Assembly: GCA_021373135.1 (NCBI GenBank)
Contig: JAJFTH010000002.1
Span: 62,001 to 126,000, forward strand
DNA: 64,000 nucleotides
Direction: 5' to 3'
DNA from: Bacteroidales bacterium
GTDB taxonomy: Bacteria > Bacteroidota > Bacteroidia > Bacteroidales > UBA1402
Below the pieces are notes generated by a model. It had not been told where the DNA came from. It saw only the letters and a list, made by a program, of their open reading frames with translations, and did not search any database. The translations under genes were made by a program, and so were the position numbers. Shown one piece after another: positions 9,990 through 52,293 of the stretch (the stretch's first letter is position 1; each line of letters opens with the position of its first letter).

Positions 9990-10205
9990 GCTCTAAAGCA
10001 TCCCGAAAAGCGGACGGCGGGAAGCGGTATGGTTGAGGGCGACTTTGAGAACGGACGCAGGGAGTCGCGCAGATGACTGCAAGGCTATTTTGTGAAGGCT
10101 CTGCAAGAGACAAACAAATAGCGCAGGAATCAAGCGATCACAAGGACGAACGAACGGAGCCCGAGGCTATGCCGCTGCACACCGGGAGCGATGCCCGATT
10201 ACCTG
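9990..10205. ncRNA. Candidate structured RNA of unknown family
   Basis: A sharply GC-rich block lies between the AT-rich toxin promoter region and the 3' end of guaA, without a convincing gene. Nested complementarity can be seen. 9998-10005 pairs with 10183-10194 (8 bp, 4-nt bulge). 10023-10032 pairs with 10167-10176 (10 bp including G-U). There are hairpins at 10039-10044/10063-10068 (GCGACT/AGTCGC), 10069-10072/10077-10080 (GCAG, loop ATGA) and 10100-10103/10107-10110. This is a multibranch fold closed by long-range stems. It lacks the usual RNase P or tmRNA signatures. The strand is undetermined; drawn pairings are for the plus strand. Confidence 0.35.
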
Positions 10206-10231
10206 AAAAAAAAAGAAAGACACTTATTTTT

Positions 10232-11752
10232 TTATTCCCACTCAATGGTTGCCGGCGGCTTGGACGAGATGTCATAAGTTACGCGGTTAACCCCTTTCAC
10301 TTTGTTGATGATTTCGTTGGACACCTTGGCCAGAAATTCGTAAGGCAAATGAGCCCAGTCGGCAGTCATGGCATCCGTAGAAGTTACGGCGCGCAGGGCG
10401 ACTGCGTTTTCATAAGTGCGTTCATCACCCATCACACCAACCGAACGAATCGGCAACAAAATGACACCGGCCTGCCAAACCTGATCGTAGAGATTCCATT
10501 CGCGCAAGCTGTCGATGAAGATGGCGTCGGCTTCCTGCGCAATGCGTACTTTTTCTTTCGTGATGTCTCCCAGAATTCGCACAGCCAAGCCCGGGCCGGG
10601 GAAGGGTTGACGCTTGATGAGGTTTTGCGGCATTCCCAATTTGTTTCCCACGCGGCGGACTTCATCTTTGAATAACAGACGCAGCGGTTCACAAAGTTTC
10701 AGGTTCATCTTTTTGGGCAAGCCTCCAACATTGTGGTGGGATTTGATGGTGGTACCGGTGATGGAAAGCGATTCGATGCAATCGGGATAAATGGTGCCCT
10801 GGGCAAGCCATTTGACATCCTTTATTTTTCGGGCTTCCTCATCAAATATATCGATAAAGCCTTTGCCTATGATTTTGCGTTTCTTTTCAGGATCGGCGAC
10901 GCCTGCCAGTTCTTTGTAAAAATGATCTTCTGCATTGACGCCGATGACGTTCAGGCCGAGCTGTTCGTAGTCGTGCATCACATTCTTGAATTCATCTTTA
11001 CGAAGCAAACCGTGATCAACGAAAATACAGGTCAGGTTTTTGCCGATGGCTTTATTCAGCAAAACGGCACAAACGGAAGAATCAACCCCGCCGGACAGGC
11101 CCAGTACCACTTTGTCATCGCCAAGCTGAGCTTTCAGGGATGCGACGGTGGAATCGATAAAGGATGCTGCCGACCAGTCTTTGGCACAACCGCAAATGGT
11201 CAGGAAGTTGTCCAAAAGTTTTGTTCCGTCTACTGTATGAAAAACTTCCGGGTGAAACTGAACGCCCCATGTATTTTCACCTTTGATATGATAAGCCGCA
11301 ATGGGAACATCTTTCGTCGAAGCAATGGTTTCAAAATCTTCAGGGATGTTGGTGATGGTATCACCGTGCGACATCCATATTTGTGAGTTTTCTGTAAAAT
11401 CTTTCAGAAGCGGATTTTCGGAGGAAAAATACCCGATATTTGCGCGGCCGTATTCGCGGGAACCGGCAGGCTGCACCGAACCGCCTGCGTTGTAAGCGAT
11501 CAGTTGGGCACCATAACAGATACCCAAAACCGGATATTTCTTGCGAAGTCTGGAAACGTCTGTCTTGAAAGCCGCTTCGTCGTACACTGAAAATGGGCTT
11601 CCGGAAAGGATCACCCCTTTTACATCGGATGCTCCGTATGGAAATTTGTTGTACGGAAGGATTTCGCAATACGTATCTAACTCACGCACACGACGGGCAA
11701 TCAATTGTGTGGTTTGTGAACCGAAGTCGAGGATAATGATTCTTTCTTGCAT
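10232..11752 (-). CDS. guaA: GMP synthase (glutamine-hydrolysing)
   Basis: Converts XMP to GMP using glutamine and ATP, the last step of guanine nucleotide synthesis. Residues 1-190 are a class I glutamine amidotransferase with nucleophile Cys79 (LGICYGAQL) and the later His-x-Glu (QFHPEVF). The ATP pyrophosphatase domain has the PP-loop [11 protein letters not shown], and the C-terminal dimerisation domain ends in [11 protein letters not shown]. Full length (506 aa). It is monocistronic here, divergent from the gapA side. Confidence 0.97.
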
Positions 11753-37551: not shown

Positions 37552-38778
37552 ATGACAACCGTAAAAGTACAATTGAACAAAAGTCGCGCTTTGCGTGACG
37601 GTCGTTACCCGCTGGTGTTTCAGATTATACATCGCCGTAAAAAGCGGCTTTTGTATTCTCCTTACCATTTTCATGAGCAAAACTTTGACGTAAGCCATGG
37701 CAGGGTGGTAAACCGCCGCACCCGGCGGATTGCCGACCTTGCACAGATCAACGCCTACATCGAATCCAACCTTCAGGAACTTCAACAGACCATCGACAAT
37801 CTGGAGCACCGTCTGGAGGAGTATTCCGTCTCAGACATCATTCAGTTATACCGGTCGGGACAGGACCGCAGTTTTGTGGTAATCTACATGCGCCGGCTGA
37901 TTGAGACCATTGAGCAAGAGGGCCGTGCAGGCACAGCCTGTGCCTATCGCAGCACCCTCAACTGTCTGCTGCGCTATTTGGTCCAAAACGAGCACCTAAG
38001 TTTTGAGGACATTTCCGCCCGCTGGCTGAACGACTTCATGAGCTATCTTCATCGCTGCGGTCTGAAACCCAATACGGTGAATTTCTATTTGCGCATCTTG
38101 CGCGCGGTATACAACAGGGCGTGGAGGGAAGAAGTGCCTGGAGCACATTCCATCTCCCCCTTCCGGAAAATCCGCCTCGGCACAGCCCGTACGGCCAAAA
38201 GAGCCGTAAGCAAGGAATGCATCCATCAGATAGCCCGCGAGAGGGTGTCCAACGACAGGCGGCTGGATCTGGCCCGTGACCTGTTCCTGTTTAGTTTCTA
38301 TAGCCGGGGAATGCCTTTTGTAGATATGGCCTTTCTGAAATACAGCAACATTACCGGCAATACGATTCGCTATACGAGACACAAAACAGGACAACCGCTG
38401 AATGTTATGATGGAGGCACCCCTGAAACACTTGGTTGAAAAATACCGCAATGAGGGAGAATATGTACTTCCCATCCTAAAATCCGGCAGTAAGGCACTTT
38501 ACAAACAATATCAGAGCGCACTGAGGCGGTATAACCGCCAACTGTCCAGTCTTTCATCCAAGCTTGACCTTCCAACGCCGCTAACCTCGTATGTGGCTCG
38601 TCACTCCTGGGCGACCATCGCCCGCAGCAGCGGTATACCGGTCTCGGTCATCAGCGAAGGCTTGGGGCATAGCAGCGAAAAAATCACGTATACTTACCTT
38701 GCAGCACTTGACCCTTCGGTAATAAATGCCGCCAACCGACGGGTAACAAATCTGAACTCCAGAAAAAAAAGTTTATGA
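37552..38778 (+). CDS. Tyrosine recombinase (phage-integrase family)
   Basis: This 408-aa site-specific recombinase of the Bacteroidota type has an arm-binding N-domain (1-90), SAM-like core-binding domain (about 105-200), and a catalytic domain with Arg in SFYSRGMPFVDM, Lys in RHKTGQPL, the YVARHSWAT box (about 350), LGHSSEKIT and the Tyr nucleophile in ITYTYLAALD (about 378-381). It stands at the upstream edge of the fimbrillin/DGR operon. It may invert a control element or have integrated the island; no attachment sites were recognised. Confidence 0.9.
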   Translation: MTTVKVQLNKSRALRDGRYPLVFQIIHRRKKRLLYSPYHFHEQNFDVSHGRVVNRRTRRIADLAQINAYIESNLQELQQTIDNLEHRLEEYSVSDIIQLYRSGQDRSFVVIYMRRLIETIEQEGRAGTACAYRSTLNCLLRYLVQNEHLSFEDISARWLNDFMSYLHRCGLKPNTVNFYLRILRAVYNRAWREEVPGAHSISPFRKIRLGTARTAKRAVSKECIHQIARERVSNDRRLDLARDLFLFSFYSRGMPFVDMAFLKYSNITGNTIRYTRHKTGQPLNVMMEAPLKHLVEKYRNEGEYVLPILKSGSKALYKQYQSALRRYNRQLSSLSSKLDLPTPLTSYVARHSWATIARSSGIPVSVISEGLGHSSEKITYTYLAALDPSVINAANRRVTNLNSRKKSL

Positions 38779-39622
38779 TTTATTCATTATGACTCAAAAG
38801 CCTCAAAAAGAAGGTGATACAAATGTGAAAATGTCTTTAAACTGCGAAGTTAACTCCATATTTGATAAAAAAAGGAAACATTTATTTTCACAAAGCAAAG
38901 AAAGCACTTTTTTTATAATAAGAATTGATTTTAAGCAGATATTTACAATAATTAACATTATATCGGAAGGATAATTAAACCTCAAAACCTGACACCAGTA
39001 ACGAAAAACCAAAAAACACTGCCTAATTATATTCATTATCATTCTTTATCTTAACGCTTTAACAGCTCTCTGAAGTCTAACTACACCTCTTCCTTCCTCT
39101 GTGGATTTTATGTGAGCCTGTCATTCTTACCTCCTTTCTGTACCTACCAACTTTCTCCAAGCATACCTCTTTCTCCTCTTTCCTCTGTGCGCCCTTGCTA
39201 TACTTCTATCCTAATTGGCGCAGGTGATAAGTGGATGAAATGTTTCACAAATCCGCTCCATGGATGCTTTTTGTAGAAACAGGCATAATCATCTGTCAGT
39301 CAGGTATATTTGAAAATCGTCCCATATCTAATTTATTAACTATGTATTTATTAAACATATCTAAATAAGTGTATGTTTCATTTTAAGTTTCATAATATTT
39401 AATCATAAGTAACAGATAATCAATTCTTATATACAATAATAGACTTATTATATTATATAAAAATGACAATGCTGAAACATGAGATATGTGTATCTCGCTA
39501 TTATACAACATTATACATCAATATATAACCTTCTATCCATCAATTCGCAGTTTAAAGAAAGAATTTTATGGCCATTTATGTAAAAAATCGTTGATAGCAA
39601 AAATATTTTATTACAAACGACT
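38779..39622. other. 840-bp non-coding control region between recombinase and pilus operon
   Basis: AT-rich overall, with no convincing gene. It holds a C/T-rich block (about 39061-39212, dominated by CTCTT/CCTC steps). TATATTTG at 39305-39312 has no well-spaced TTG. There is an inverted repeat AAACATA/TATGTTT (39353-39359 / 39372-39378) and a hairpin GAGATA/TATCTC (39481-39486 / 39491-39496). The promoter for the 39623-49051 operon must lie here or further upstream. Confidence 0.45.
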
Positions 39623-40234
39623 ATGAAATTAAAGTATCTCTTCTTGTTGCTTTTTGGAGTCGGAGTTTGCACACTTCATGGGCAGAATGTCACAGTCAGT
39701 GAGATGCCTTCACGCTGGGCTTTGAAGACCAACCTACTTTATCTGTGCGTCCTGATGCCCAACTTGGAGTTGGAGTATCTGTTCTCCAAACGCTGGTCGT
39801 TGAATATGGAAGGGCAGTATGCCTGGTGGTCCATATCGGAGAAAAATAAATATTATCAGATTGCAGCTGTGAGTCCGGAAATACGTTACCGGCTTAGCTG
39901 CAAGGAACCGTTCAGCGGACATTATCTGGGTTTATATTATGGTAGTGGACTCTTTGACCTTGAGAATGGCGGCAAAGGTTTCCGGGGAGAATGTTACCTG
40001 TCGACCGGCTTGAGTTATGGCTATATGAAATCCCTTGGCCCCCACTTGTCTCTGGAACTGGGCTTGGGTGTAGGCTACTTGTCCACCCAATACAAGAAAT
40101 ACCTTCCCATTGACGGTCGCTGTGTCTACCAGTCGACGGAGCATCTCAACTATATAGGGCCAACCAAAGCAAAAATATCGTTGGTCTGGAAATGGCGTAA
40201 AAGTGTAAATAAGCAAACTAAAGGGGATAGATAA
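39623..40234 (+). CDS. DUF3575 protein of the fimbrillin operon
   Basis: Secreted protein with signal peptide MKLKYLFLLLFGVGVCTLHG and an outer-membrane beta-barrel-like body (WALKTNLLYLCVLMPNLELEYLFSKRWSLNMEGQYAWW, and CYLSTGLSYGYM). DUF3575 is the recurring first gene of Bacteroidales fimbrillin loci; it is thought to be an outer-membrane component. 203 aa. Its stop codon TAA shares its last A with the next gene's ATG. Confidence 0.85.
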   Translation: MKLKYLFLLLFGVGVCTLHGQNVTVSEMPSRWALKTNLLYLCVLMPNLELEYLFSKRWSLNMEGQYAWWSISEKNKYYQIAAVSPEIRYRLSCKEPFSGHYLGLYYGSGLFDLENGGKGFRGECYLSTGLSYGYMKSLGPHLSLELGLGVGYLSTQYKKYLPIDGRCVYQSTEHLNYIGPTKAKISLVWKWRKSVNKQTKGDR

Positions 40235-41145
40235 TGGTACAGAAAATGAGAAAAGTTGTTTTCGTCTCCATATTGGTCTTTTTATGCCTGTCGGCAAGCA
40301 GCTGCCGCAAGGATTTATATTATGACGGGACAACGCAAACGGTGGATATCAACGTTCTCTGGCCTGACACCATCACTGTGCCCGAAGGCGTCCGTGCCAT
40401 TTTTTTCCCAACCGACGGTTCTACTCCCCATGTGTACAACCTGTCCGCTACCGGTGGTTCTGTTTTGGTTCCTGTAGGTGAATACACGGTTTTGCTCTTC
40501 AACAATGACACCGAATATGCCAGGTTGCAGAACACCGAAAGCCTTTCCACGATAGAAGCCTATACAAGTTTGCTGTTGAAAGCTGGAGATACCAAAAGTT
40601 TTCCCGAACAAAACATCGTTAACATGCCGGATATGTTCTATACCTATTTACTGAAGGATTATCAGGTGTTGGGAAACGGGACTTCTGCAGACATTGAGGC
40701 CGCTCCGAAGGCCAGGGTTTTTGATTCCCGGATTCTGGTAAAAATAGTCGGGCTAAAGAACGTATCCTCAAGTAGGGGGTACATCAGTGGCGTGGCAGGG
40801 AGCTACTTTCCGGGAAAGGACAGCCTTCCGGTCACCTCTTCGGCTGTGGCCTTCGATTTCGGACAGAAAAGCAGCAACTACATTTCCGCAATCATGCGCA
40901 TATTCGGTATGAGCCGGACTCTTCCGCAGCAAAACATCTTCCGGCTTTCCCTGACATTGATCAATGGAGAGAACAAATATTACGATTTTAACATAACCGA
41001 TCAACTAAAGGTGGATCTGAGCACCGGTCTGGTTATAACTATAGCGGATTCCATCGTGGTGGAAGACGTCTCCGGAAATACAGGATCCGGTTTTAATGCC
41101 ACAGTCAATGACTGGACAAATACGGATGCAGATGTGCCTTTGTAA
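40234..41145 (+). CDS. DUF5119 lipoprotein of the fimbrillin operon
   Basis: A lipoprotein with lipobox ASSC (CLSASSCRKDLYYDG). The remaining 280 residues carry the Mfa/Fim-like beta domain known as DUF5119 (INVLWPDTITVPEGVRAIFFPTDG). In related loci such proteins are minor, often basal or accessory pilins. 303 aa. It overlaps the upstream gene by one base, so translation is coupled. Confidence 0.82.
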   Translation: MVQKMRKVVFVSILVFLCLSASSCRKDLYYDGTTQTVDINVLWPDTITVPEGVRAIFFPTDGSTPHVYNLSATGGSVLVPVGEYTVLLFNNDTEYARLQNTESLSTIEAYTSLLLKAGDTKSFPEQNIVNMPDMFYTYLLKDYQVLGNGTSADIEAAPKARVFDSRILVKIVGLKNVSSSRGYISGVAGSYFPGKDSLPVTSSAVAFDFGQKSSNYISAIMRIFGMSRTLPQQNIFRLSLTLINGENKYYDFNITDQLKVDLSTGLVITIADSIVVEDVSGNTGSGFNATVNDWTNTDADVPL

Positions 41146-41199
41146 TTATTTCATGTATTAAACTTAATTTTTCTATTTATCGACCTAAAAACAGTTTTT

Positions 41200-42219
41200 A
41201 TGAAAAGATCTATTTTTTTATTAGGCTTGGCGGCTTTTGCCATGACGAGTTGCACACAAGAAGAGAACACCGCTGGTGGAACAGGGAATGTCAATGCCAT
41301 CAGTTTCGGCACTTTTGTGGGAAAAGCAACTAAGGGAACACCGGTAACAGGTATAGATTTTCCCGTGGATGGGGATTTTCTGGTGATTGGATACAACACT
41401 TCATCTACGCTGACAGCTGCTACTGCTTATCCGAACTTTATGAGGCAAACAGTGACGAAAACGGACGCTTCGACGTATTCTTATTTTCCACTCCGTTATT
41501 GGCCATCAACAGGTTATGTCAGCTTTTTTGCCGTTTTTCCGGCCGGTGTGAGCACCATCACTCCTGCGGCAGTATCTTCAGCGATAGCAACTCTTCCTGC
41601 TGTGTCTTATGCCGTCAATACCGATCCGGTCAAACAGGCTGATTTGATGCTTGCTTCGGCTGTCAATAAGACATCAGCCGATGGTACTGCAAGCTTCTCT
41701 TTCACCCATGCGCTGACAAAGATTGGTTTTACCGCCAAGTTGGCCGCCGATTATGGAGCCAACGGCACCTACATCCGCATCACCAGCATCAGCCTGAAGA
41801 ACGTCGCCGGCACGGGTGACTTCACTGCAGCTGAAGGTGGATCTTGGTCGCAGACCACCCCTACCGTTTTCACATCCACCTTTACGTTGGATTATCTGAA
41901 GAATCTGGTTGACAATGGCTCTGTATCCACTACGACCGACAAGAACATGGTTCTGGCCAATTCCTACCTGATGATGGTTCCTGCAGATTATGCTGCATCT
42001 GCCGACGCAGCCTTGGAAGTCAAATATACCATTACTTATGCGGATGGTACAACTTACGACTTTACAAGCAACAAGTTGCTTAAGGATTTGACTGTTGTTG
42101 CCGGAAAGACGTGGACCTCAGCCAGTGCCATCACCTACAAAATGACCATCACCCTGAATGCTGTCAGTTTCAGTGCTACCACGACCGACTGGTCAGCCAA
42201 TTCTGATGTTGCTTTGTAA
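41200..42219 (+). CDS. Fimbrillin-family protein (putative major pilin)
   Basis: A lipoprotein of the Mfa-like/FimA (type V pilus) superfamily: lipobox FAMTSC, a short Gly/Asn linker, then two transthyretin-like beta domains (ISFGTFVGKATKGTP..., SFFAVFPAGV, SFTHALTKIGFTAKL, and C-terminal SATTTDWSANSDVAL). 339 aa. In this family, cleavage in the N-terminal domain exposes a groove filled by the next subunit's strand. The compact size and lack of extra domains suggest the stalk (major) subunit; that role is inferred from locus order. Confidence 0.8.
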   Translation: MKRSIFLLGLAAFAMTSCTQEENTAGGTGNVNAISFGTFVGKATKGTPVTGIDFPVDGDFLVIGYNTSSTLTAATAYPNFMRQTVTKTDASTYSYFPLRYWPSTGYVSFFAVFPAGVSTITPAAVSSAIATLPAVSYAVNTDPVKQADLMLASAVNKTSADGTASFSFTHALTKIGFTAKLAADYGANGTYIRITSISLKNVAGTGDFTAAEGGSWSQTTPTVFTSTFTLDYLKNLVDNGSVSTTTDKNMVLANSYLMMVPADYAASADAALEVKYTITYADGTTYDFTSNKLLKDLTVVAGKTWTSASAITYKMTITLNAVSFSATTTDWSANSDVAL

Positions 42220-42257
42220 GGATTGATTTCTTTCATTCCATATTTCATAGTTTCAGG

Positions 42258-42285
42258 CCGGGCGGGGTTGGATGTCCCCTCCCGG
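42258..42285 (+). promoter_or_regulatory. GC-rich hairpin between the two fimbrillin genes
   Basis: CCGGGCGGGG (42258-42267) and CCCCTCCCGG (42276-42285) pair over nine of ten positions around an 8-nt loop. There is no following T-run. It may stabilise the upstream pilin mRNA or reduce read-through into the larger gene. Confidence 0.45.
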
Positions 42286-42314
42286 TCACATGTACCAACA
42301 AAAATTCATACCTG

Positions 42315-44459
42315 ATGCAACGAGTTCTTCATAGATTTGTATCTGCCGTCTTACTGATCTGCCTTGTTCTGGCAGGCTGTAACAATGACGACCTCTCGTC
42401 CGGTAGCTCTTCCGGTGATGTCGCTTCCGGTGCCATCGGTTTCAATACCACAGAAAATGCCCTGACAAAGGGACTGATGGAGAGCGACTGGGAAACAGTG
42501 GAGGTGCCTCTTAGCGAGAACACCCCAGGCAAGTCTGTCAATACATCTTTGAAGTCATCCTTTTCAGAAACAGCTTCTACCGCAGTTGCGTCTTCCGCTT
42601 CCGCCTATCCTTCCGCCTCGGCCCTGCAAACCCGTGGTGCCCCTGTTTTTGGGACGGAGGCTCCTGCCGGCAGTTTTGGAGTGCTGGGCTATTTGCTTAC
42701 GGGTGGTACCTGGAATAGCACCACAGCCACTCCTTCCTTTATGTACAACACCCAAGTGACCCGCACGGGCAGTTCAGGCAGCTATTCGTACAGCTACTAT
42801 CCTGTAAAATACTGGCCCAATGATACGAGTGACAAGGTCCGATTCTTTGCCTACTATCCCTATCAAGGCAACGGCATCAGCCTGTCATCGGCCACAACGA
42901 CAGGCTATCCGGTCATTACCTACACTCCCGGCACGACGGTATCAAACCAGATCGATCTGATGTACGCTGCTTGCAGCGCGGTAAACAACAAATCTACCGA
43001 AACTGCCGTCAGTTTGAGCTTCAACCATGCGCTCACCTGTATCAATTTTTCTGCTAAGTTGGATTCTTTTTTTTCCACCGAAAAAGTAGTCATCCGGTCC
43101 ATTCAGATGACAGGTATCAAGAGCAGCGGCACACTGTCGCTCGACTCTTCCTTGAGTAATCCGTGGACCATTGGTTTTACTACCACTTCTTATACCGCAT
43201 CTATCAGTGATGGCTCAGTAGTACCTGCAGCAAATCAGTCTTTAAGCAGTGCCGGATACATCTCCGTTTCTACATATAATGGCTACCTGCTGCTTTTACC
43301 ACAGAGTGTAACAACCTCTAACACGGTGGTGGTGAGCTATACCGTTAATGGTTTGGAAAAAACTGTCACTTATCTGTTGCCATCCGCTACCTGGAGCAAA
43401 GGGCAGAGCATCAATTATCGGTTAACCATTCCTTTTGAAGAAATAGCCAATTGTTACATTTTGTCTCCGGGTTCGAAGCGAATTATTCCGGTAGGCATCA
43501 AGGGAAACGGTGATGCCACAACCGCATCGTTGGCCGGAATCAGCACCACTCATACGGCCGCCTCTGTCGGTGTGTTGTGGGAAACCACGTCTGGTCTCGT
43601 CACCTGCACGGGCTTCAATGCTACCTCTCAAACCGTCACCGTAAATGCGCCTTTAATGAATCAATCAGGAAACGCAGTTATTGCTGCTTACAGCGGCGAC
43701 AGCCAGTCTGGAACGATTCTTTGGTCCTGGCATATTTGGGTGACCTCATACAATCCGAATACCAAGATAAACGGGACCACATACAGTTATACCAATACAT
43801 CAGGAGTCACCAATGTGTTCATGGATAGAAATCTCGGAGCGACTTCGGTGGTTGCTGCTGATGTCAATACGTATGGTTTGCTTTATCAGTGGGGGCGTAA
43901 AGATCCGTTTACGGGTTCCGGCACATATAATGGAAACACGGCTCAAACAGTTTACGGAACCAAAACTGTTACCACATCCGCTGGTCCAATCAGTATCGCT
44001 GAAGCAATTAATGCTCCGAATGTCTTTTACTATAACAGTACTACTCCATACAACTGGTGTTCCACACAGTATGATGGTCTTTGGTCAGGGACTGTCAGTA
44101 CTTCTGCCAAGTCCATTTTCGATCCAAGTCCATTTGGATGGCGTGTACCAAGTTGGAAAAAGACCGGCACCAGTGCATCTCCGTGGATTGGTCTTGCTTC
44201 TTATCAGGGTTCTTCGTATTGGAGTACCAATGGATATAATTGGGTTACCACTCCCGGTATTGGTTTCTGGCCGGCTGCGGGTTATCGCGGCAACGGCAGT
44301 GGGGCACTCGACGGCGTTGGCAGCAGCGGCGACGACTGGTCTGCATCGCCTAACAGCAGCTACGGGTACAAGCTGAAAATCTACAGTAGCAGCGTGTATC
44401 CGGAGGGCAACGACAGTCGGGCGAACGGGTTCTCGGTCAGGTGTGTTCAAGCATGGTAG
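42315..44459 (+). CDS. DGR target: fimbrillin with C-terminal FISUMP/C-type-lectin domain (putative tip adhesin)
   Basis: A 714-aa lipoprotein (LVLAGC lipobox) with a Ser/Thr-rich linker and a fimbrillin beta domain (about 110-380; SYYPVKYWPNDTSDKVRFFAYYPYQG). A connecting beta domain (about 385-490) starts NCYILSPGSKRIIPV. The C-terminal FISUMP domain carries VFMDRNLGATS, YGLLYQWGRKDPF, SPFGWRVPSW and FWPAAGYRG, ending NGFSVRCVQAW. Residues 653-713 are encoded by the variable repeat. The last 40 residues show the G-F-S-V-R-C end seen in other DGR targets. Lectin-fold DGR targets display the variable residues on a ligand-binding surface; here this would be a pilus tip. Confidence 0.88.
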   Translation: MQRVLHRFVSAVLLICLVLAGCNNDDLSSGSSSGDVASGAIGFNTTENALTKGLMESDWETVEVPLSENTPGKSVNTSLKSSFSETASTAVASSASAYPSASALQTRGAPVFGTEAPAGSFGVLGYLLTGGTWNSTTATPSFMYNTQVTRTGSSGSYSYSYYPVKYWPNDTSDKVRFFAYYPYQGNGISLSSATTTGYPVITYTPGTTVSNQIDLMYAACSAVNNKSTETAVSLSFNHALTCINFSAKLDSFFSTEKVVIRSIQMTGIKSSGTLSLDSSLSNPWTIGFTTTSYTASISDGSVVPAANQSLSSAGYISVSTYNGYLLLLPQSVTTSNTVVVSYTVNGLEKTVTYLLPSATWSKGQSINYRLTIPFEEIANCYILSPGSKRIIPVGIKGNGDATTASLAGISTTHTAASVGVLWETTSGLVTCTGFNATSQTVTVNAPLMNQSGNAVIAAYSGDSQSGTILWSWHIWVTSYNPNTKINGTTYSYTNTSGVTNVFMDRNLGATSVVAADVNTYGLLYQWGRKDPFTGSGTYNGNTAQTVYGTKTVTTSAGPISIAEAINAPNVFYYNSTTPYNWCSTQYDGLWSGTVSTSAKSIFDPSPFGWRVPSWKKTGTSASPWIGLASYQGSSYWSTNGYNWVTTPGIGFWPAAGYRGNGSGALDGVGSSGDDWSASPNSSYGYKLKIYSSSVYPEGNDSRANGFSVRCVQAW
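44271..44454 (+). repeat. DGR variable repeat (VR)
   Basis: This 184-bp segment is co-linear, with no indel, with the template repeat at 45612-45795 (offset 1341). There are 20 mismatches, 16 of them where the template has A (13 A-to-G, 3 A-to-T). It starts exactly in frame at codon 653. The last 38 bp (44417-44454) are identical to the template and contain the likely IMH site that fixes homing at the 3' end. Confidence 0.92.
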
Positions 44460-44544
44460 GGGCCATGAGCCCCGCATTCGATTATTCGATTCATTCTCGT
44501 CGGACATTGAAAGGCCGGCGAGGTCTTACCGCCTTTGAGGCGGT
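44459..44544 (+). repeat. Three successive hairpins just after the VR
   Basis: Stem 1: GGGGC (44459-44463) / GCCCC (44469-44473), 5-nt loop, four bases after the VR end and covering the stop codon's edge. Stem 2: CTCGTCGG (44496-44503) / CCGGCGAG (44515-44522), eight pairs including one T-G. Stem 3: ACCGCC (44528-44533) / GGCGGT (44539-44544). In characterised DGRs a hairpin or cruciform just after the VR promotes retrohoming; stem 1 is well placed for that and stem 3 could end transcription. Confidence 0.6.
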
Positions 44545-44566
44545 CGGAAATTTTTAAAATATTGAA

Positions 44567-45037
44567 ATGAGTATTCAAGAGATTATAAACATTGAAGACC
44601 GCAACAAGGGCGAGATTCATCTGTACAAGGAAGGCATTTTTTGGAAAGCCTACCAACAGTCGGCATACCTTTTTACACGGGAGGTGAGGGCGTTCAAGAT
44701 TTCCAAAAAGATGGTGAAGTCGGTTGGTCGGGAGGTGGTCTCTCTTGGTTTCCCAAAAAATGCGCTGGAACAGTATTTTAGCAAAGAAAAGCTGACAGAA
44801 ATAAATGAGAAGCAGTTGTTGATTACGGGTTATACGTTTAAGATGGAGGATTACCAGCAGTGGCTGGAATCTTTACCGTTGGTCTCCAAACAAAAGCAAA
44901 CGAATGACCGGCAGCCAATAAATAAAGAAGATGCAGTCTTGGCTTTGCTTCTGGGATTCAGGGTGGAAAGATCTACGCCTATGGAGTGCATGCAATTAGT
45001 GGTTTCCCTTCAAAAAATGTTGGATGGCAGTCTATGA
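44567..45037 (+). CDS. Small MutS-like DGR accessory protein
   Basis: This 156-aa protein is not a full enzyme. Its first half (IHLYKEGIFWKAYQQSAYLFTREVRAF, KKMVKSVGREVVSLGFPKN) resembles the mismatch-recognition N-terminal domain of MutS, including a F/Y-x-E-like segment at FWKAY. No ATPase or Walker motif is present. Proteins of this kind are known beside Bacteroidota DGR reverse transcriptases. Its stop overlaps the avd start by 14 bp. A role in target DNA or mispair recognition is inference. Confidence 0.65.
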   Translation: MSIQEIINIEDRNKGEIHLYKEGIFWKAYQQSAYLFTREVRAFKISKKMVKSVGREVVSLGFPKNALEQYFSKEKLTEINEKQLLITGYTFKMEDYQQWLESLPLVSKQKQTNDRQPINKEDAVLALLLGFRVERSTPMECMQLVVSLQKMLDGSL

Positions 45038-45365
45038 AAATTTACCGGTATTCAAGGCTTCTTACGATTTGCTGCTTGCTTCGTTTAAAATGTGTAGCAG
45101 TCTGTCTCGCGATTATCGGCACACGTTGGGCGAGCGGCTTAAGGTGGAATTGACCGATTTGATGGTTTGCATTTACAGGGCCAATGGGACGGAAGATAAG
45201 TTGCCGTTTCTGGCCGAAGCCCGTGAACGAGTGGTGGTGATAAAACTACACCTACGCTTGCTGCACGATTTGAAACAGATTTCTCTTAAGCAGTACGCTC
45301 TACAGGCTGAAAATATCGAGTCGGTATCGAAGCAGCTGGCGGCCTGGCAAAAGAAATATAAATAG
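45024..45365 (+). CDS. avd: DGR accessory variability determinant (Avd)
   Basis: A 113-aa all-helical protein of the four-helix-bundle 23S-rRNA-IVP-like family: NLPVFKASYDLLLASFKMCSSLSRDYRHTLGERLKVEL, then RERVVVIKLHLRLLHDLKQISLKQYA. Avd forms a positively charged pentamer that binds the template RNA and the reverse transcriptase; it is required for mutagenic homing in phage BPP-1. It lies directly upstream of the template repeat, as in classical DGRs. Confidence 0.85.
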   Translation: MAVYENLPVFKASYDLLLASFKMCSSLSRDYRHTLGERLKVELTDLMVCIYRANGTEDKLPFLAEARERVVVIKLHLRLLHDLKQISLKQYALQAENIESVSKQLAAWQKKYK

Positions 45366-45843
45366 AAAAAAGAAACAAGAATAAACAGGTTGATTGTACG
45401 GAGTCTCAGCGGAGGCCTCTGGTTCTTCCTGAGAGTGTGACATGTAAATTCAGTAACCCGCTGACGGCGTAAAGGCGCAACTCTTTGATGGAAATGCGTA
45501 GCCGTTAGCTATATATCCTAGTCTGTCAAGGTGTTTGGGCTTTGTTGACATCTCCATGAGGTGCTGATGAAAGCGAGCCGCCCTGACATTCATCACCAGT
45601 GGTTACTTTTTCCGGCTGCGGGTTATCGCAACAACAGCAGTGGGGCACTCAACAACGTTGGCAACAACGGCGACTACTGGTCTGCATCGCCTAACAGCAG
45701 CAACGGGTACAACCTGAATTTCAACAGTAGCAACGTGAATCCGGAGAACAACAACAATCGGGCGAACGGGTTCTCGGTCAGGTGTGTTCAAGCATTTACA
45801 GACCTGTTTTTTCGTGTTTCTTTTTAATGAGCTATAAACAAAG
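45366..45843 (+). ncRNA. DGR template RNA (TR RNA) region
   Basis: A non-coding stretch between avd and the reverse transcriptase that contains the template repeat. Upstream of it, three local stems can be drawn: GCTGACGGC/GCCGTTAGC (45460-45468 / 45501-45509, 9 pairs); TGTCAA/TTGACA (45524-45529 / 45545-45550); TGATGAA/TTCATCA (45565-45571 / 45589-45595). A 48-nt spacer joins the repeat to the RT gene and could carry the cDNA priming site. A frame across the repeat (45561-45827) merely mirrors the target's coding and is not taken as a gene. Confidence 0.7.
45612..45795 (+). repeat. DGR template repeat (TR)
   Basis: The 184-bp donor copy of the variable repeat. In the target's frame it would read NNSSGALNNVGNNGDYW and so on, with many AAC (Asn) codons, the design that allows A-to-N change to reach the widest set of residues while avoiding stops. 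16 of the 20 differences from the VR fall on template adenines. Confidence 0.92.
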
Positions 45844-46995
45844 ATGATAGACAAAGACACGACATTACTTACAGCAGTGTTCCAGGCATATTACGATGCC
45901 AGGGCGCATAAGCGCAATTCCATCAACCAGCTTCGCTTTGAGATTAACCTTGAAGAGAATCTGGTGGAGCTTTATCACGAGATCCTCGAATGGCGGTATA
46001 AGGTGGGTCGAAGTGTTTGTTTTATCGTGAACAAACCGGTGCAAAGGGAAATATTTGCTGCCGATTTTCGTGACAGGGTAGTGCATAATTTGCTGTATAA
46101 TTACATTTCACCGTTGTTCGATCCCACGTTTATTGATGACAGCTACGCATGCCGCAAAGGTTATGGCACACTGAAGGGCATTGAACGTTTGGAGCATCAT
46201 ATTCGTTCGTGTACGAATAATTATACCCAACCGGCATATATACTCAAACTTGATATTCAAGGGTATTTCATGAGTATGAACCGGAATGTTTTATACGGTA
46301 AGGTAGAGCATTTTCTACTTAAATATGATGCCCGGCATGATGTGTCCACGAAAGGAATCTTCAACCTGAAGCGGATATTATACCTTATTCGGGAAATTGT
46401 TTTTAATGACCCTACAAAGGATTGCATCATCCGTGGAAGTCGGAAAGACTGGGAAGGGTTGCCGATGTCGAAAAGCCTGTTTCATTCTGCCCCGCAGTGT
46501 GGACTTCCCATTGGGAATCTGACTTCTCAGTTGTTCAGTAATATCTATCTGGATGAACTGGATCAGTTTGTAAAAAGGGAATTGGGGGTACGGCATTATG
46601 GACGGTATGTGGACGATTTTTTTCTTGTCCATTCTAATAAATATTTTTTGTTGAAAGCCGAAGAGCAAATAAAGGTTTTTTTACAGGATTCGCTCGGTCT
46701 GACGCTTCACCCTAAAAAGGTCTATTTGCAGGATGCAACCAAAGGTGTTGTTTATTTAGGAGCGGTGGTTAAGCCGTATCGGCGGTATGTGGTGAATAAG
46801 ACCAGAAGGCGAATCTTTCAGTCGTTGAGCGAACTTAATGTGAAGGCTGGGCGGAGTCGTCCGCTATCAAAAACGGAAGCTATGAAGTTGCAGGCTTCTG
46901 TGAATTCAAACCTTGGTTACTTGAATCATTTTCGATTGTACCGCATGAAATGTGTCCTTGAAAAACGAAATACTTCATTCATTAATTACTTATGA
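45844..46995 (+). CDS. DGR reverse transcriptase
   Basis: A 383-aa RT with the fingers-palm motifs of group-II-like prokaryotic RTs: RDRVVHNLLYNYI (RT1), SYACRKGYGT, LKLDIQGYFMSM (motif A Asp), QCGLPIGNLTSQ (residues 218-229, the DGR-typical motif 4 in place of QGxxxSP) and the catalytic YVDD at 255-258. No maturase or endonuclease domain follows, as expected for a DGR. Its stop codon lies 7 bp before the downstream protease gene. The enzyme copies the template RNA with errors at adenines. Confidence 0.93.
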   Translation: MIDKDTTLLTAVFQAYYDARAHKRNSINQLRFEINLEENLVELYHEILEWRYKVGRSVCFIVNKPVQREIFAADFRDRVVHNLLYNYISPLFDPTFIDDSYACRKGYGTLKGIERLEHHIRSCTNNYTQPAYILKLDIQGYFMSMNRNVLYGKVEHFLLKYDARHDVSTKGIFNLKRILYLIREIVFNDPTKDCIIRGSRKDWEGLPMSKSLFHSAPQCGLPIGNLTSQLFSNIYLDELDQFVKRELGVRHYGRYVDDFFLVHSNKYFLLKAEEQIKVFLQDSLGLTLHPKKVYLQDATKGVVYLGAVVKPYRRYVVNKTRRRIFQSLSELNVKAGRSRPLSKTEAMKLQASVNSNLGYLNHFRLYRMKCVLEKRNTSFINYL

Positions 46996-47002
46996 AAATC
47001 GC

Positions 47003-48166
47003 ATGATTAAGAAAGGCGTCGAGACCATTATTCTGTTCATTCTCCTGTTATCCATGAATGCTTGCTGTAACGATGACGATTCCGTTAAAACATTTTCAGG
47101 AAAAACCGTCTTAGTGTATATGGTGGCCGATAACAGTCTTAGCAGTGATGCACAGGTTAATATAGACAGCTTAGTGTCTGGCTTCGGCAGAAATGACATA
47201 AATGGAAACCTGCTTATCTATCTGGATCGCAGAAATGAAGTTCCCAAGTTGATACAGCTGTTAAAATCTGATGATGGAACAGTGAGCCGGCAGGCAGTCA
47301 GGACTTATGAGGAGCAGAATTCGGTGTCGCCCACCGTCATGGCATCGGTTCTTAAAGAGGTGACCGCACGTTTTCCATCCACCAGCTACGGGTTGGTGCT
47401 CTGGTCGCATGGTTACGGCTGGCTGCCGGGAACGACCAGTTCCAAGGCTGTCACCACCCGCTGGTTCGGACAGGACGGAACTGACGAGATGGACCTTGCA
47501 GATTTGGCGACAGCACTCAGTGAAGGGCCACATTTCGATTATATCCTTTTTGATGCCTGCTTCATGGGCGGGGTGGAGACGGCTTATGCCCTCAGGGGGT
47601 GCACGGACTACCTGATCGCATCTCCTACGGAGGTACTTTCGGACGGTTTTCCATATAGCGAGATGGTACCTTATATGATGGGCAGTACAAAGTCCGACTA
47701 TATCCGGATGGCTTCGCTTTATTATGAGCATTACAGTGCCATGACCGGTTACAGTTGCTCGGCAGCAGTAGGCTGCATCAAGTGTAGTGAGCTTGAAGCA
47801 CTGGCCTTAGAAACAAAAATGCTGATCAGTGCGCATGCTGCCGACCTGGATTCCTTCGACGTCTCCTCGGTACAATGTTTTGAGAGCTACTCCCCGCATC
47901 TGTTTTATGATTTCGGGGATTTCGTGGAGAACTTCACGACGGAGCTACAACGTCATTATTTTAAACTGCAGCTTGAAAAAGCAGTAGTCTATAAGGCATG
48001 TACCGAGAACATCCTCTCGGTAAACGGTAGCAGTCATTATTTTTCTGTGGAGCATTTCAGCGGCCTGAGCACCTACATACCCAGTAGCGTAACCGCCACA
48101 AGAAACGCTTCCTATCAGACTTTGGAATGGTATACGGCTGTAGGATGGAGCAAGACCAAGTGGTAA
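47003..48166 (+). CDS. Clostripain-family (C11) cysteine protease lipoprotein
   Basis: A lipoprotein signal (MIKKGVETIILFILLLSMNAC) precedes a caspase-like protease: catalytic His136 in LWSHGYGW and Cys186 in FDACFMGGVETAYAL. 387 aa. The frame opens 17 codons earlier inside the RT gene, but ATG 47003 places the signal peptide at the N-terminus. C11 proteases cleave after Arg/Lys. Because type V pilins are matured by an Arg-specific protease in related bacteria, a pilin-maturing role is a reasonable guess from position only. Confidence 0.85.
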   Translation: MIKKGVETIILFILLLSMNACCNDDDSVKTFSGKTVLVYMVADNSLSSDAQVNIDSLVSGFGRNDINGNLLIYLDRRNEVPKLIQLLKSDDGTVSRQAVRTYEEQNSVSPTVMASVLKEVTARFPSTSYGLVLWSHGYGWLPGTTSSKAVTTRWFGQDGTDEMDLADLATALSEGPHFDYILFDACFMGGVETAYALRGCTDYLIASPTEVLSDGFPYSEMVPYMMGSTKSDYIRMASLYYEHYSAMTGYSCSAAVGCIKCSELEALALETKMLISAHAADLDSFDVSSVQCFESYSPHLFYDFGDFVENFTTELQRHYFKLQLEKAVVYKACTENILSVNGSSHYFSVEHFSGLSTYIPSSVTATRNASYQTLEWYTAVGWSKTKW

Positions 48167-48238
48167 AGGTTTTAAACGACAATAGACGCATGAATGCCTA
48201 ATCTAAAAGAAAAGAAGTTAAACTATTTGTAGCAAATC

Positions 48239-49051
48239 ATGAATACAACAAAAGACATGGGGATATTTGGCAAACTCAAAATCCTGATTTTCAAACACGC
48301 TATCGGCACAAAACCTTGTACAAGCACCTCTCGCACTATCGGAAAGCCTTGTACAATCGTGGCTGAACGCCCCACCGGCAGTGGGACGGATCGTGACCCT
48401 TTTATCCTATCGACATTGGGACATTTGGTCTGGTTATCGAGAAACGGATGGTGCTGGAATGCGGCCTTTAGACAGATAAAAGATATTGATGCCGGCAAGA
48501 CCCGGTCCCTTGAGGGCGAGTTCTCACCCATAGGCTCTTCTTCCATTCCATTCGTCGGCACCTATGATGGGAGCGGACACATCATCTCAGGATTAAGCAT
48601 ATCGGAACCTGAGACGGACTATCAGGGCTTTTTTGGAATGACAATGAATGCCTGCATCTGCAATCTTGGGCTTCCGGATGTCAATATGAAGGGTCTTAAC
48701 AACGTAGGGGGCGTGGTGGGCTATATGAATGGTGGCTATATCAGGAATTGTTATGCCACGGGTAGTGTGCTTGGTTGCTATTATGTGGGAGGAATCTGTG
48801 GCAAGGCTGACTTTCCCGACATATCCGACTGCTACGCAACAGTTGCCGTCAATGGCGGATACTTCTGCGGCGGGCTCGTAGGTAAAAGCCATGCGGGAAT
48901 AATAACCCGATCCTATTCAACAGGATGCATATTCAGTGCTGCCGAATCAGAGTATTCGGGTGGCTTTATAGGCCACAACGTCGGCAACTCCACTGTCATA
49001 GACCGAGATATCTACAACAGTGACTTTTTTACCGATCACACCAAATCCTGA
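48239..49051 (+). CDS. GLUG-repeat protein, probably a remnant
   Basis: The 270-aa protein contains at least three GLUG-type repeats (NVGGVVGYMNGGYIRNCYATGSV, YVGGICGKADFPDISDCYATV, CGGLVGKSHAGIITRSYSTG) that fold as beta-solenoid steps in surface adhesins. It lacks a signal peptide, and the 30 N-terminal residues look unrelated. It ends abruptly after the third or fourth repeat. It may be the decayed fragment of a larger adhesin, or an adhesin whose N-terminus was lost when the upstream protease joined the operon. Confidence 0.55.
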   Translation: MNTTKDMGIFGKLKILIFKHAIGTKPCTSTSRTIGKPCTIVAERPTGSGTDRDPFILSTLGHLVWLSRNGWCWNAAFRQIKDIDAGKTRSLEGEFSPIGSSSIPFVGTYDGSGHIISGLSISEPETDYQGFFGMTMNACICNLGLPDVNMKGLNNVGGVVGYMNGGYIRNCYATGSVLGCYYVGGICGKADFPDISDCYATVAVNGGYFCGGLVGKSHAGIITRSYSTGCIFSAAESEYSGGFIGHNVGNSTVIDRDIYNSDFFTDHTKS

Positions 49052-49143
49052 TTTGAAAAAAACACGGTCGAGACGAAGTCCGTGAAGACTTCTTAATCTG
49101 CCAACTGGCATTTTTACAGCAACGGACCTATATCGTCTTTCTC

Positions 49144-50043
49144 TCAATAATCATCAGTATATTTCGGCTCTTCACAGAACCGGTCGGACAGGGAATCAAA
49201 CAAGCGGTTCGATATGATGTAAAAAAGAATGGCTGAAAGGAAACCACCCAAGACATCGACCATGTAATGAGCCTTGATGTAGACCGTGGAAAATGCCAGG
49301 ATGACATATATCGGTAAAATGAACCAAAAAGTTTTACGAAATTTTGAAAACGTCAGCAGCAGCAAGATGGTGGAGATTCCGACATGTGAGCTTGGAAAGG
49401 CTCCGGTCGGTTTTTCGCCAAATCTTTGAATATAATGGATTAATTGTGAGAAAAAATATCCTGAGGGTGCTTTTCCGGGATCTCCCTGATAATAGAACTG
49501 AGGACCGCCCACAGGCAAAATGATGTAGATGATATAATAAAGGTAAAAGGAGCATAAAATCACAAATATTGCCCGGCTGAACTCTTTTGGCCGCTTCTGC
49601 CAAAACAGGAAAGGCACACCTACCGCAATGATATAATAAGAGAAATAGCCGAAATACATCAATTCACTGAACCACCGTTCCGGAAGATATTTACAGAAGG
49701 CCAAAGAAGGCTCCATTCCGAAAAGTTTTTGATCTGCCCGACAAAAAAACGGATCTTGATTCGGTAAGAACATACCGGCAAAATCATAAGTTTCCGAATA
49801 CCAATAACCGAGAATAATAAACGGAAGGAATTGCCTGAAAGCTTTCAGATACCGCCAGTCCCTGTTGCGGGAAATGCTTGCAAGTGAAAGAATCATGACG
49901 ACAGTCATTAATCGGGCCTCGAAAAAAAAGGAAGTATCAGGGAATTTAGACAAATTAAAAACCAGAAATACCGTTGTAACCAAAACATAAGCCAACGTTA
50001 TCCATTCGCCGGAATAGAACTTAAGTGAATGCAATTTAAACAT
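49144..50043 (-). CDS. PAP2-family membrane phosphatase/phosphotransferase
   Basis: The 299-aa protein has about six membrane helices and the PAP2 catalytic motifs: the AFPSSHVGIS box and, after two helices, KAHYMVDVLGG (His). The first motif is weak. In Bacteroidota such proteins act on lipid phosphates (undecaprenyl-, phosphatidyl- or inositol-sphingolipid metabolism). Which substrate applies is not visible. It is transcribed alone, convergent with the GLUG gene. Confidence 0.82.
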   Translation of the reverse strand: MFKLHSLKFYSGEWITLAYVLVTTVFLVFNLSKFPDTSFFFEARLMTVVMILSLASISRNRDWRYLKAFRQFLPFIILGYWYSETYDFAGMFLPNQDPFFCRADQKLFGMEPSLAFCKYLPERWFSELMYFGYFSYYIIAVGVPFLFWQKRPKEFSRAIFVILCSFYLYYIIYIILPVGGPQFYYQGDPGKAPSGYFFSQLIHYIQRFGEKPTGAFPSSHVGISTILLLLTFSKFRKTFWFILPIYVILAFSTVYIKAHYMVDVLGGFLSAILFYIISNRLFDSLSDRFCEEPKYTDDY

Positions 50044-50361
50044 GACTCTTTCCTATTGTATAGATTGAAAGACATGAGGTATGTCCTGAATATCTAAGTT
50101 GGGGCAAAGAAACTGAATTTAGAGGTATAAAACAAATTCAATATTTTTTATTAACAATCGATCATCAGAATTCAAGATAGATTTTGAGTCTTACTGCCAA
50201 AAAGTCATATTCGTTTGTCAGATTTAAAGACAAATTCTCCTGTTTGCTGTCAAAAGATCGTATCGGACACTCCTTTTTATTTTGGCACGGGTTTTGACTT
50301 TTAGCAAGTGTCGGCAACGATATAAATCATGAAACGAATAAACTAAAAGATAAAATTTAAA
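50044..50361. other. Intergenic region before dnaK
   Basis: AT-rich, without a coding frame. Its only distinct element is the possible sigma-54-type promoter at 50283-50298. No CIRCE inverted repeat (TTAGCACTC-N9-GAGTGCTAA) is visible. Confidence 0.5.
50283..50298 (+). promoter_or_regulatory. Sigma-54-like promoter of dnaK
   Basis: TGGCACG, four bases, then TTGAC resembles the sigma-54 consensus TGGCAC-N5-TTGCW, with GG and the downstream G in correct spacing but GA replacing GC. The start would be near 50308, about 54 nt before the ATG. No good TAnnTTTG box is nearby. Confidence 0.4.
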
Positions 50362-52293
50362 ATGGGAAAGATTATTGGAATTGACTTAGGAACCACCAAC
50401 TCGTGTGTTTCTGTTTTGGAAGGAAACGACCCGATTGTTATTGCCAACAGTGAAGGCAAACGTACGACTCCTTCTGTTGTAGCTTTTATTGATGGCGGCG
50501 AACGTAAAGTAGGTGATCCGGCAAAACGTCAAGCCATCACCAACCCACAAAAGACTGTTTCATCCATCAAACGTTTTATGGGAACTTCCTATGATCAAGC
50601 AGGAGTCGATATTAAACGTATGCCTTATAAAGTGGTCCGTGGTGAAAACAATACACCACGTGTAGATATCGATGGACGTATGTACACCCCGCAAGAAATT
50701 TCAGCTATGATTCTTCAAAAAATGAAGAAGACCGCCGAAGATTATTTGGGAACGGAAGTAACGGAAGCGGTCATTACCGTACCGGCATACTTTAACGACT
50801 CGCAGCGTCAGGCAACCAAAGAAGCCGGTGAAATTGCAGGTTTGAAAGTTCGCCGTATCGTAAACGAACCTACTGCTGCAGCTTTGGCTTACGGCTTGGA
50901 CAAGAAGAGCAAAGATATGAAGATCGCCGTATTCGACCTTGGTGGCGGAACGTTCGATATCTCTATCCTTGAATTGGGTGACGGTGTGTTTGAAGTTAAA
51001 TCAACCAATGGTGATACACACCTTGGTGGCGATGACTTTGACCAGACCATCATTGACTGGTTGGCAGACGAATTCCTGAAAGAAGAGGGCATCGACCTTC
51101 GCAAAGATCCGATGGCTTTACAACGTTTGAAGGAAGCTGCCGAAAAAGCAAAAATCGAATTGTCAAGTTCTACTTCCACCGAAATCAACCTGCCGTACAT
51201 CATGCCGGTAAACGGTATTCCAAAACACTTGGTAAAAACCTTGAGCCGTGCACAATTTGAAAAATTGGCAGACCGTTATATCCAGGCATGTGTTGAGCCT
51301 TGTCGCAAAGCGATGGCTGATGCCGGGCTTACAGCAAGTGATATAGATGAGGTGATCCTTGTAGGTGGTTCGACCCGTATCCCTGTCATCCAAACATTGG
51401 TGGAGAAATTCTTCGGAAAGGTTCCTTCCAAAGGTGTGAATCCTGATGAAGTGGTAGCTGTAGGTGCTGCTATTCAAGGTGGTGTACTTTCAGGAGAGGT
51501 AACGGATGTTTTGCTGCTTGATGTTACCCCGCTTTCTTTGGGTATTGAAACCATGGGTGGTGTAATGACCAAACTGATTGAATCAAACACCACCATTCCT
51601 ACCAAGAAATCGGAAGTATTCACAACCGCAGCCGACAACCAGCCTTCTGTAGAAATCCATATTCTTCAGGGTGAACGTTCCATGGCCAAAGACAATAAGA
51701 CCATCGGTCGTTTCCATTTGGATGGTCTTCCTGCTGCCCGTCGTGGTACTCCTCAAATCGAGGTTACTTTTGATATTGATGCAAACGGTATCCTGAATGT
51801 ATCTGCCAAGGATAAGGCTACAGGCAAATCTCAAAGCATCCGTATCGAAGCTTCAAGCGGTTTGACCGATGCTGAAATCAAGCGTATGAAAGATGAAGCT
51901 CAGGCCAATGCTGAAGCTGATAGCAAGGAAAAGGAGCGCATAGATAAACTGAACCACGCCGACAGTTTGATTTTTCAAACGGAAAAGCAACTGGAAGAAT
52001 TGGGTGACAAGCTTCCGGCAGACAAGAAAGCTCCTATCGAAGCTGCCCTTGCCAAACTGAAAGACGCTCACAAGGCTCAGGATATTGCCGGAATCGATGC
52101 TGCAACCGCAGAACTCAATAGCGTTTTCCAGGCTGCTTCTGAGGAGATGTACAACCAGGCTAACACTCAGGGTGGCGCGCAAGCTCAACCGAATCCTCAG
52201 GATTTTGGCGGTCAGCAAGCCAATCCGAACCAAGGCGAAAGCAAGTCCGGTGATGATAATGTGACTGATGTGGACTTTGAAGAAGTGAAGTAA
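50362..52293 (+). CDS. dnaK: Chaperone DnaK (Hsp70)
   Basis: An ATP-driven chaperone for nascent and stress-damaged proteins. It has [13 protein letters not shown] at the N-terminus, [13 protein letters not shown] and [14 protein letters not shown] in the ATPase domain, the linker [15 protein letters not shown], and a substrate-binding domain. The tail is rich in Gln/Gly/Asn and ends with the acidic DVDFEEVK. 643 aa. grpE and dnaJ are not adjacent. Confidence 0.98.

Follow-up and report, generated by a model that had tools for sequence, protein, structure and literature searches.

A diversity-generating retroelement likely to rewrite the C-terminus of a predicted tip protein of a type V pilus in a Bacteroidales genome

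How might a bacterium keep varying the tip protein of its pili, and what might decide which of its cells do so? These questions are raised by a 64,000-nt stretch of a Bacteroidales genome (assembly GCA_021373135.1, contig JAJFTH010000002.1, positions 62,001 to 126,000; hereafter the window, in whose positions all coordinates are given), where a 184-nt sequence occurs twice, next to a reverse transcriptase (RT) gene and within a set of predicted pilus genes. Our results identify this repeat pair, together with the RT and an Avd-like gene, as a diversity-generating retroelement (DGR), and we have high confidence that this DGR is likely to rewrite codons templated by adenines, at the C-terminal end of what is predicted to be the tip protein of a type V pilus.

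The two repeats are direct, equal in length and aligned without an indel, and they differ at 20 positions, 16 of which face adenines of the downstream copy (13 A>G and 3 A>T). That copy holds 53 adenines, and the concentration of mismatches on them gives a Fisher p of 6.7e-7; only 2 of the 20 face adenines of the upstream copy, and we therefore take the downstream copy as the template repeat (TR) and the upstream one as the variable repeat (VR). The coordinates and counts in a preliminary description of this DNA were thus reproduced, while its claim that VR is exactly the C-terminal 61 codons of the target held for the number of codons and not for the end, since VR spans codons 653-713 of 714 and leaves the last Trp codon and the stop outside. 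A search with TR of the whole source genome (2.65 Mb in 10 contigs, 89% complete) returned VR and TR and no third copy, and a repeat scan of 38000-52000 turned up just one more direct repeat with a length of at least 30 nt (34 nt at 71%). Since nearly all differences between template and target are at adenines, ongoing rewriting of the tip end is likely.

The machinery that would perform this rewriting lies in the same cassette, which runs, on the + strand, from the tip gene with VR at its end through an open reading frame at 44567-45037, Avd and TR to the RT. The frame at 44567-45037, which we discuss below as MSL, had been overlooked, so that the earlier report of an Avd-type protein between the repeats was right about Avd and wrong in making it the sole gene there. 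The RT carries intact GLPIGNLTSQ (46501-46530) and YVDD (46606-46617) motifs, both where they had been described, and its best match among solved chains is 8ub7_A (E 2.1e-26), which we take to be the BPP-1 DGR enzyme, against 9e-9 for group II-type chains and 2e-5 for chains named retron-type. This ranking, together with a TIGR04416 score of 94 bits against a cut-off of 300, leads us to reject a group II intron or retron RT and supports the earlier assignment to the DGR type. A defence RT was also considered and rejected, as the PADLOC rows are general RT matches and the TR/VR pair accounts for the locus. The RT has one match in the source genome, and the reading frames of RT, Avd and MSL are all open.

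The protein that ends in VR is lipoprotein-like, carries Mfa_like_1, and matches Bacteroidota fimbrial proteins over residues 35-375 (fold rows cover 35-477); it combines a fimbrillin fold with an additional C-terminal domain, as expected of a type V tip. Of the earlier label "fimbrillin-FISUMP lipoprotein", the fimbrial part stands, while the FISUMP scores are weak: profile TIGR02145 gives E 0.013 and 16.1 bits against a cut-off of 41.65, and four homologues, with E between 1.1e-5 and 2.1e-3, likewise score under it. PF09603 did not match the target, and a sequence search of its last 236 residues against solved chains gave only two matches, both with E above 1. The gene set expected of a type V pilus is present nearby, with an Mfa_like_1 pilin, a DUF5119 protein (an anchor by its position) and a clostripain, so that pilin genes and a protease do stand beside the DGR, as had been claimed. 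The fimbrial match and the neighboring pilus genes together support the interpretation, made from sequence, that the DGR targets the tip protein of a type V pilus.

Further support comes from related proteins. In the metagenomic protein P0141 (sources jgi and ena), residues 1-658 are identical to those of the window's tip, and the first difference falls within VR, at residue 659, which corresponds to the first AAC codon of TR; P0141 has N, Y and S where the window has G, N and G, all at A-bearing TR codons, and beyond these residues its frame is shifted inside VR, so that P0141 could represent a null allele or else a chimera assembled from reads of TR and VR. Apart from the window's own, the closest RT (P0001) shows 4 differences in 383 residues, and the closest MSL (P0121) 1 in 156. 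Across an alignment of 64 tips (the window's and 63 homologues hand-chosen from 120 listed, with much longer proteins, P0141 and others excluded), the 31 codons with a TR adenine at position 1 or 2 have a mean variability of 2.64 bits, against 0.86 bits for the 30 others (Mann-Whitney p 2.3e-9). Since the homologues belong to other lineages with templates of their own, this contrast speaks to a common program of variable positions and not to the activity of this copy. Both the departure of P0141 within VR and the variable A-codon columns of related tips fit diversification. In eleven TR/VR pairs from relatives' loci, 233 of 243 mismatches lie at TR adenines, which we treat as kinship and not as an independent test, because ten of the pairs were chosen on being flagged for adenine bias, the eleventh (L061, 9/14) being unflagged with its direction assumed. 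The scan covered 15 other stretches, of which six (L012, L050, L051, L052, L053 and L062) have no flagged or used pair. As a separate observation, the metagenomic tips P0142 and P0143 have unlike N-terminal pilin halves and are identical over at least their last 59 residues, VR included, which a domain swap or one DGR with two targets would explain.

Table 1. Features of the retroelement, the predicted pilus operon and the region upstream of it
Feature	Position	Strand	Remarks
Tyrosine recombinase	37552-38778	+	PF00589 E 1.4e-9; PF13102 E 3.4e-19
Left arm, perfect 15-bp inverted repeat	38834-38848	+	no further exact copy of the 15-mer in genome
Right arm, 15-bp inverted repeat	39544-39558	-	22-bp repeat at same place in G299
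DUF3575 protein, first pilus-operon gene	39623-40234	+	PF12099 E 2e-39
DUF5119 lipoprotein-like protein, likely pilus anchor	40234-41145	+	PF17145 E 1.6e-35
Fimbrillin-like pilin, likely stalk	41200-42219	+	PF13149 Mfa_like_1 E 2.5e-21
Target of the DGR (714 aa), predicted tip protein of a type V pilus	42315-44459	+	VR at 3' end
Variable repeat (VR)	44271-44454	+	184 nt; differs from TR at 20 positions, 16 of them TR adenines
Short GC hairpin, possible homing site element	44459-44473	+	5-bp stem, 5-nt loop, 4 nt past VR
MSL (156 aa), likely DGR accessory resembling a stand-alone MutS domain I	44567-45037	+	PF01624 E 7.6e-4; structural match
Avd-like DGR accessory, 113 aa	45024-45365	+	PF22296 E 4.5e-10; phrog_3206 E 1e-18
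17-nt leader element upstream of TR	45442-45458	+	common to relative G299
Template repeat (TR)	45612-45795	+	53 adenines; 15 AAC and 3 AAT codons in target's frame
DGR reverse transcriptase, 383 aa	45844-46995	+	PF00078 E 1.4e-15; phrog_1423 E 8.3e-91; 8ub7 E 2.1e-26
Clostripain-family protease, likely pilin processing	47003-48166 (ORF listed from GTG 46952)	+	PF03415 E 2.7e-52

Beyond the tip, the operon and the cassette (Table 1), a GLUG-motif protein (PF07581) is encoded past the clostripain, at 48239-49051. Among relatives, the RT was found in none of three other genomes of the genus and in one of 12 others of the family (G007), and a scan of genome contigs gave three distant loci (from records named Elusimicrobiota, Patescibacteria and Clostridiales) and no near relative. 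G007 has tip, MSL, Avd and RT in the window's order. At its locus (L012), VR is a run of N at about 3938-4090, which may be an assembly gap at a hypervariable stretch, and a second N run lies near 134-214. A further locus, in G339 (L061, 294-2840), has RT, MSL and Avd followed by a TR-like copy, an order unlike that of the window. In G299, which belongs to another family, the pilus operon also includes genes for a tip whose end is FISUMP-like, for an RT and for a clostripain, with MSL, Avd and TRs lying upstream of a recombinase; one TR is about 15.6 kb upstream of VR, and all 8 in-repeat mismatches are at adenines (counted in the printed alignment, edges excluded).

The 17-nt leader upstream of TR has three copies in G299, two of them upstream of TRs, and the bases directly after TR are also common to both genomes; the exact 17-mer is absent from nine other stretches scanned. 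The three G299 copies (L050) lie at 8836, 9941 and 13457, the third without a TR tail, and an 87% copy lies on another contig. This locus holds two tandem TR cassettes (8976-9186 and 10080-10290), 15-17 kb from VR and RT; more than one template per DGR is unusual. An Rfam search of 44400-46000 in the window gave nothing at gathering score.

What, then, does the protein between the tip and Avd contribute? Its predicted structure matches domain I of MutS/MSH ahead of any other fold, and we consider it most likely to be MSL, an accessory already described from DGRs that consists of a MutS domain I fold on its own; this identification draws on sequence and a structure model. MSL (MutS-like, PF01624) is named together with HRDC as a known DGR accessory in passages of PMC10053308; in the window it adjoins Avd in one cassette and scores just under the Pfam cut-off. 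That score (20.1 bits for MutS_I, against 20.6) tells against the identification, as does a search of the MSL alignment profile against solved chains, which gave nothing below E 10. Because this search was empty and hhalign against the host MutS was weak (probability 10, and E 0.003 for one target), the link to MutS rests on Pfam and the structure model. One hypothesis is that MSL would bind the mismatched VR heteroduplex and keep host mismatch repair away from it, and the match of the model to a mismatch-recognition domain before other folds, with the Phe of the MutS F-x-E motif kept, is in line with this. Alternatively, MSL could work within the RT complex, for example by holding template RNA or cDNA, in a role unrelated to mismatches or their repair; in the alignment, Lys replaces the Glu of the motif, 18 of the 19 MSL family rows that cover it read FWK, and the 156 residues include no ATPase part, all of which bring this alternative close to an even chance.

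The question of which cells would run the element may turn on the region upstream of the operon. Downstream of the tyrosine recombinase, whose next best match in the genome is 27% identical, a perfect inverted repeat encloses 725 bp, and 64 bases separate its end from the DUF3575 gene. In G299, too, a DUF3575 gene is preceded by a recombinase, 36-38% identical to the window's, and between the two lies a perfect 22-bp inverted repeat (2 bases from the recombinase stop and 8 from the gene), against a longest repeat of 14 bp in 200 shuffles. A recombinase and a 15-bp repeat before the operon, with the same layout in a second family, therefore suggest that 38834-39558 is an invertible switch of the pilus operon, the orientation of which the recombinase would set. 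It is also plausible, if somewhat less so, that there is no switch, the recombinase being the integrase of a mobile element and the repeat a product of chance or another binding site. Consistent with this, when the intergenic sequence was shuffled 300 times by mononucleotides, the 15-bp repeat length was reached once, a look for a Bacteroides-type promoter in the 725-bp segment gave nothing convincing, and although a like recombinase (E <= 1e-35) occurs in 8 of the 28 genomes searched, it is on the DGR's contig in just three (the window's, G299 and G386). The shared layout in G299 argues otherwise, as do the uniqueness of the exact 15-mer and the position of a recombinase lacking a close genomic copy right beside the repeat; the genome holds two single-mismatch 15-bp sites, and neither has a second copy (at up to 2 mismatches) in its 14-kb stretch. 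In G386 (L056), whose contig carries a DGR with MSL, the recombinase is followed by a 20-bp inverted repeat (5821-5840 and 5982-6001, arms 141 bp apart) that precedes a different gene, encoding a small lipoprotein-like protein.

Several observations weigh against the DGR reading. Four of the 20 mismatches are at bases other than adenine (T>A, T>A, T>G and C>G, at 44334, 44372, 44378 and 44379), a higher share than in the relatives' pairs (10/243). The Avd assignment scores near or below curated cut-offs (PF22296, 40.4 against 40 bits; NF033474, 50.7 against 80), and a search of Avd against solved chains gave none below E 0.1 (best E 0.16). The fold of the TR leader is unexceptional (z -0.6), and 16 of 200 shuffles fold as well as the hairpin after VR. 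In BPP-1, a hairpin just past VR is required for efficient homing, and phage DGR hairpins have 7-10 bp stems and 4-nt loops, 4 to 34 bp from VR (in the parts of PMC3240598 consulted); the hairpin here is only suggestive, because its stem is shorter than these and it is unexceptional against shuffles. One could suppose a decayed or resting DGR, in which diversification lies in the past and the later divergence of the two repeats is due to common mutational drift; the excess of non-adenine mismatches and the frame shift of P0141 are what such a history might leave, yet RT, Avd and MSL remain open, the RT motifs are intact, and P0141 differs in VR while the 658 residues before it are unchanged, so that we judge a resting element improbable. 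At codons 22 and 37, where non-adenine mismatches fall, TR encodes the commonest residue among the 64 tips (Y in 47/64, F in 55/64) and VR a rarer one, and the change is therefore likely to have been on the VR side. A plain duplication whose copies grew apart through point mutations and selection, with no reverse transcription, would allow for the non-adenine mismatches but is scarcely credible for a pair in which 16 of 20 mismatches face adenines of one copy (p 6.7e-7), Avd and RT adjoin, and the second copy lies outside any large gene.

If the locus is a working DGR aimed at the pilus tip, as we prefer, its parts can be placed in a sequence. The RT-Avd complex would copy TR RNA, misreading adenines, and the mutated cDNA would replace VR; changes at the two adenines of any of the 18 AAC or AAT codons of TR cannot give a stop. 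The rewritten tip would be displayed on a pilus for which the anchor-like and pilin genes upstream supply the parts and the clostripain encoded downstream does the processing. Further, inversion of 38834-39558 by the recombinase would switch expression of the pilus operon, and so of the DGR that it contains. These steps might be joined in a two-tier unit, in which an invertible promoter picks the cells that build the pilus and run the DGR, the DGR rewrites the tip in those cells, and MSL hides the heteroduplex from host MutS so that the new tip is kept; we offer this whole arrangement tentatively and regard it as doubtful.

DGR-diversified type V pilus tips are already known, as a recently recognized route for Bacteroidota to vary attachment, and it is the joined switch, in a two-tier arrangement, that may be new. 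The nearest likeness is to the DGRs that diversify type V tip pilins of Bacteroides, described in passages of a review (PMC12632263) that cites Macadangdang et al. 2024, where a DGR is likewise aimed at a type V tip pilin in Bacteroidota. A DGR target with Fib_succ_major and Mfa2 domains, from a stool metagenome and reported in 2014 (in parts of PMC4159848), is similar in being a lipoprotein that joins a fimbrillin-type part to an end of FISUMP type, and differs in having 807 aa with an Mfa2 domain, against 714 aa with Mfa_like_1 and weak FISUMP scores in the window. In capped listings of open-licence papers (20 of 109 matches in one of them, among which PMC8042965 contains all four terms), we saw no report of a DGR joined with an invertible promoter before a pilus. 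Relative to the DGR of BPP-1, as excerpts of PMC12875486 and PMC3240598 describe it, the order is alike, with VR at the 3' end of the target, then Avd, TR and RT, and the candidate hairpin of the window lies, like that of BPP-1, after VR; in contrast, the BPP-1 target belongs to a phage tail and that of the window to a bacterial pilus, the candidate hairpin here is shorter with a 5-nt loop, and the cassette adds a gene for MSL, the MutS domain I-like protein whose possible role in keeping or discarding A-mutations is directly measurable. Finally, invertons with recombinases near fimbrillin genes (in sections of PMC11892184) and a phase-variable fimbria-like locus (in passages of PMC12632263) are known in Bacteroides; unlike these, the operon downstream of the predicted inversion also contains a DGR. 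What the locus would add is a likely phase switch ahead of a diversified pilus, in a layout that recurs in another family.

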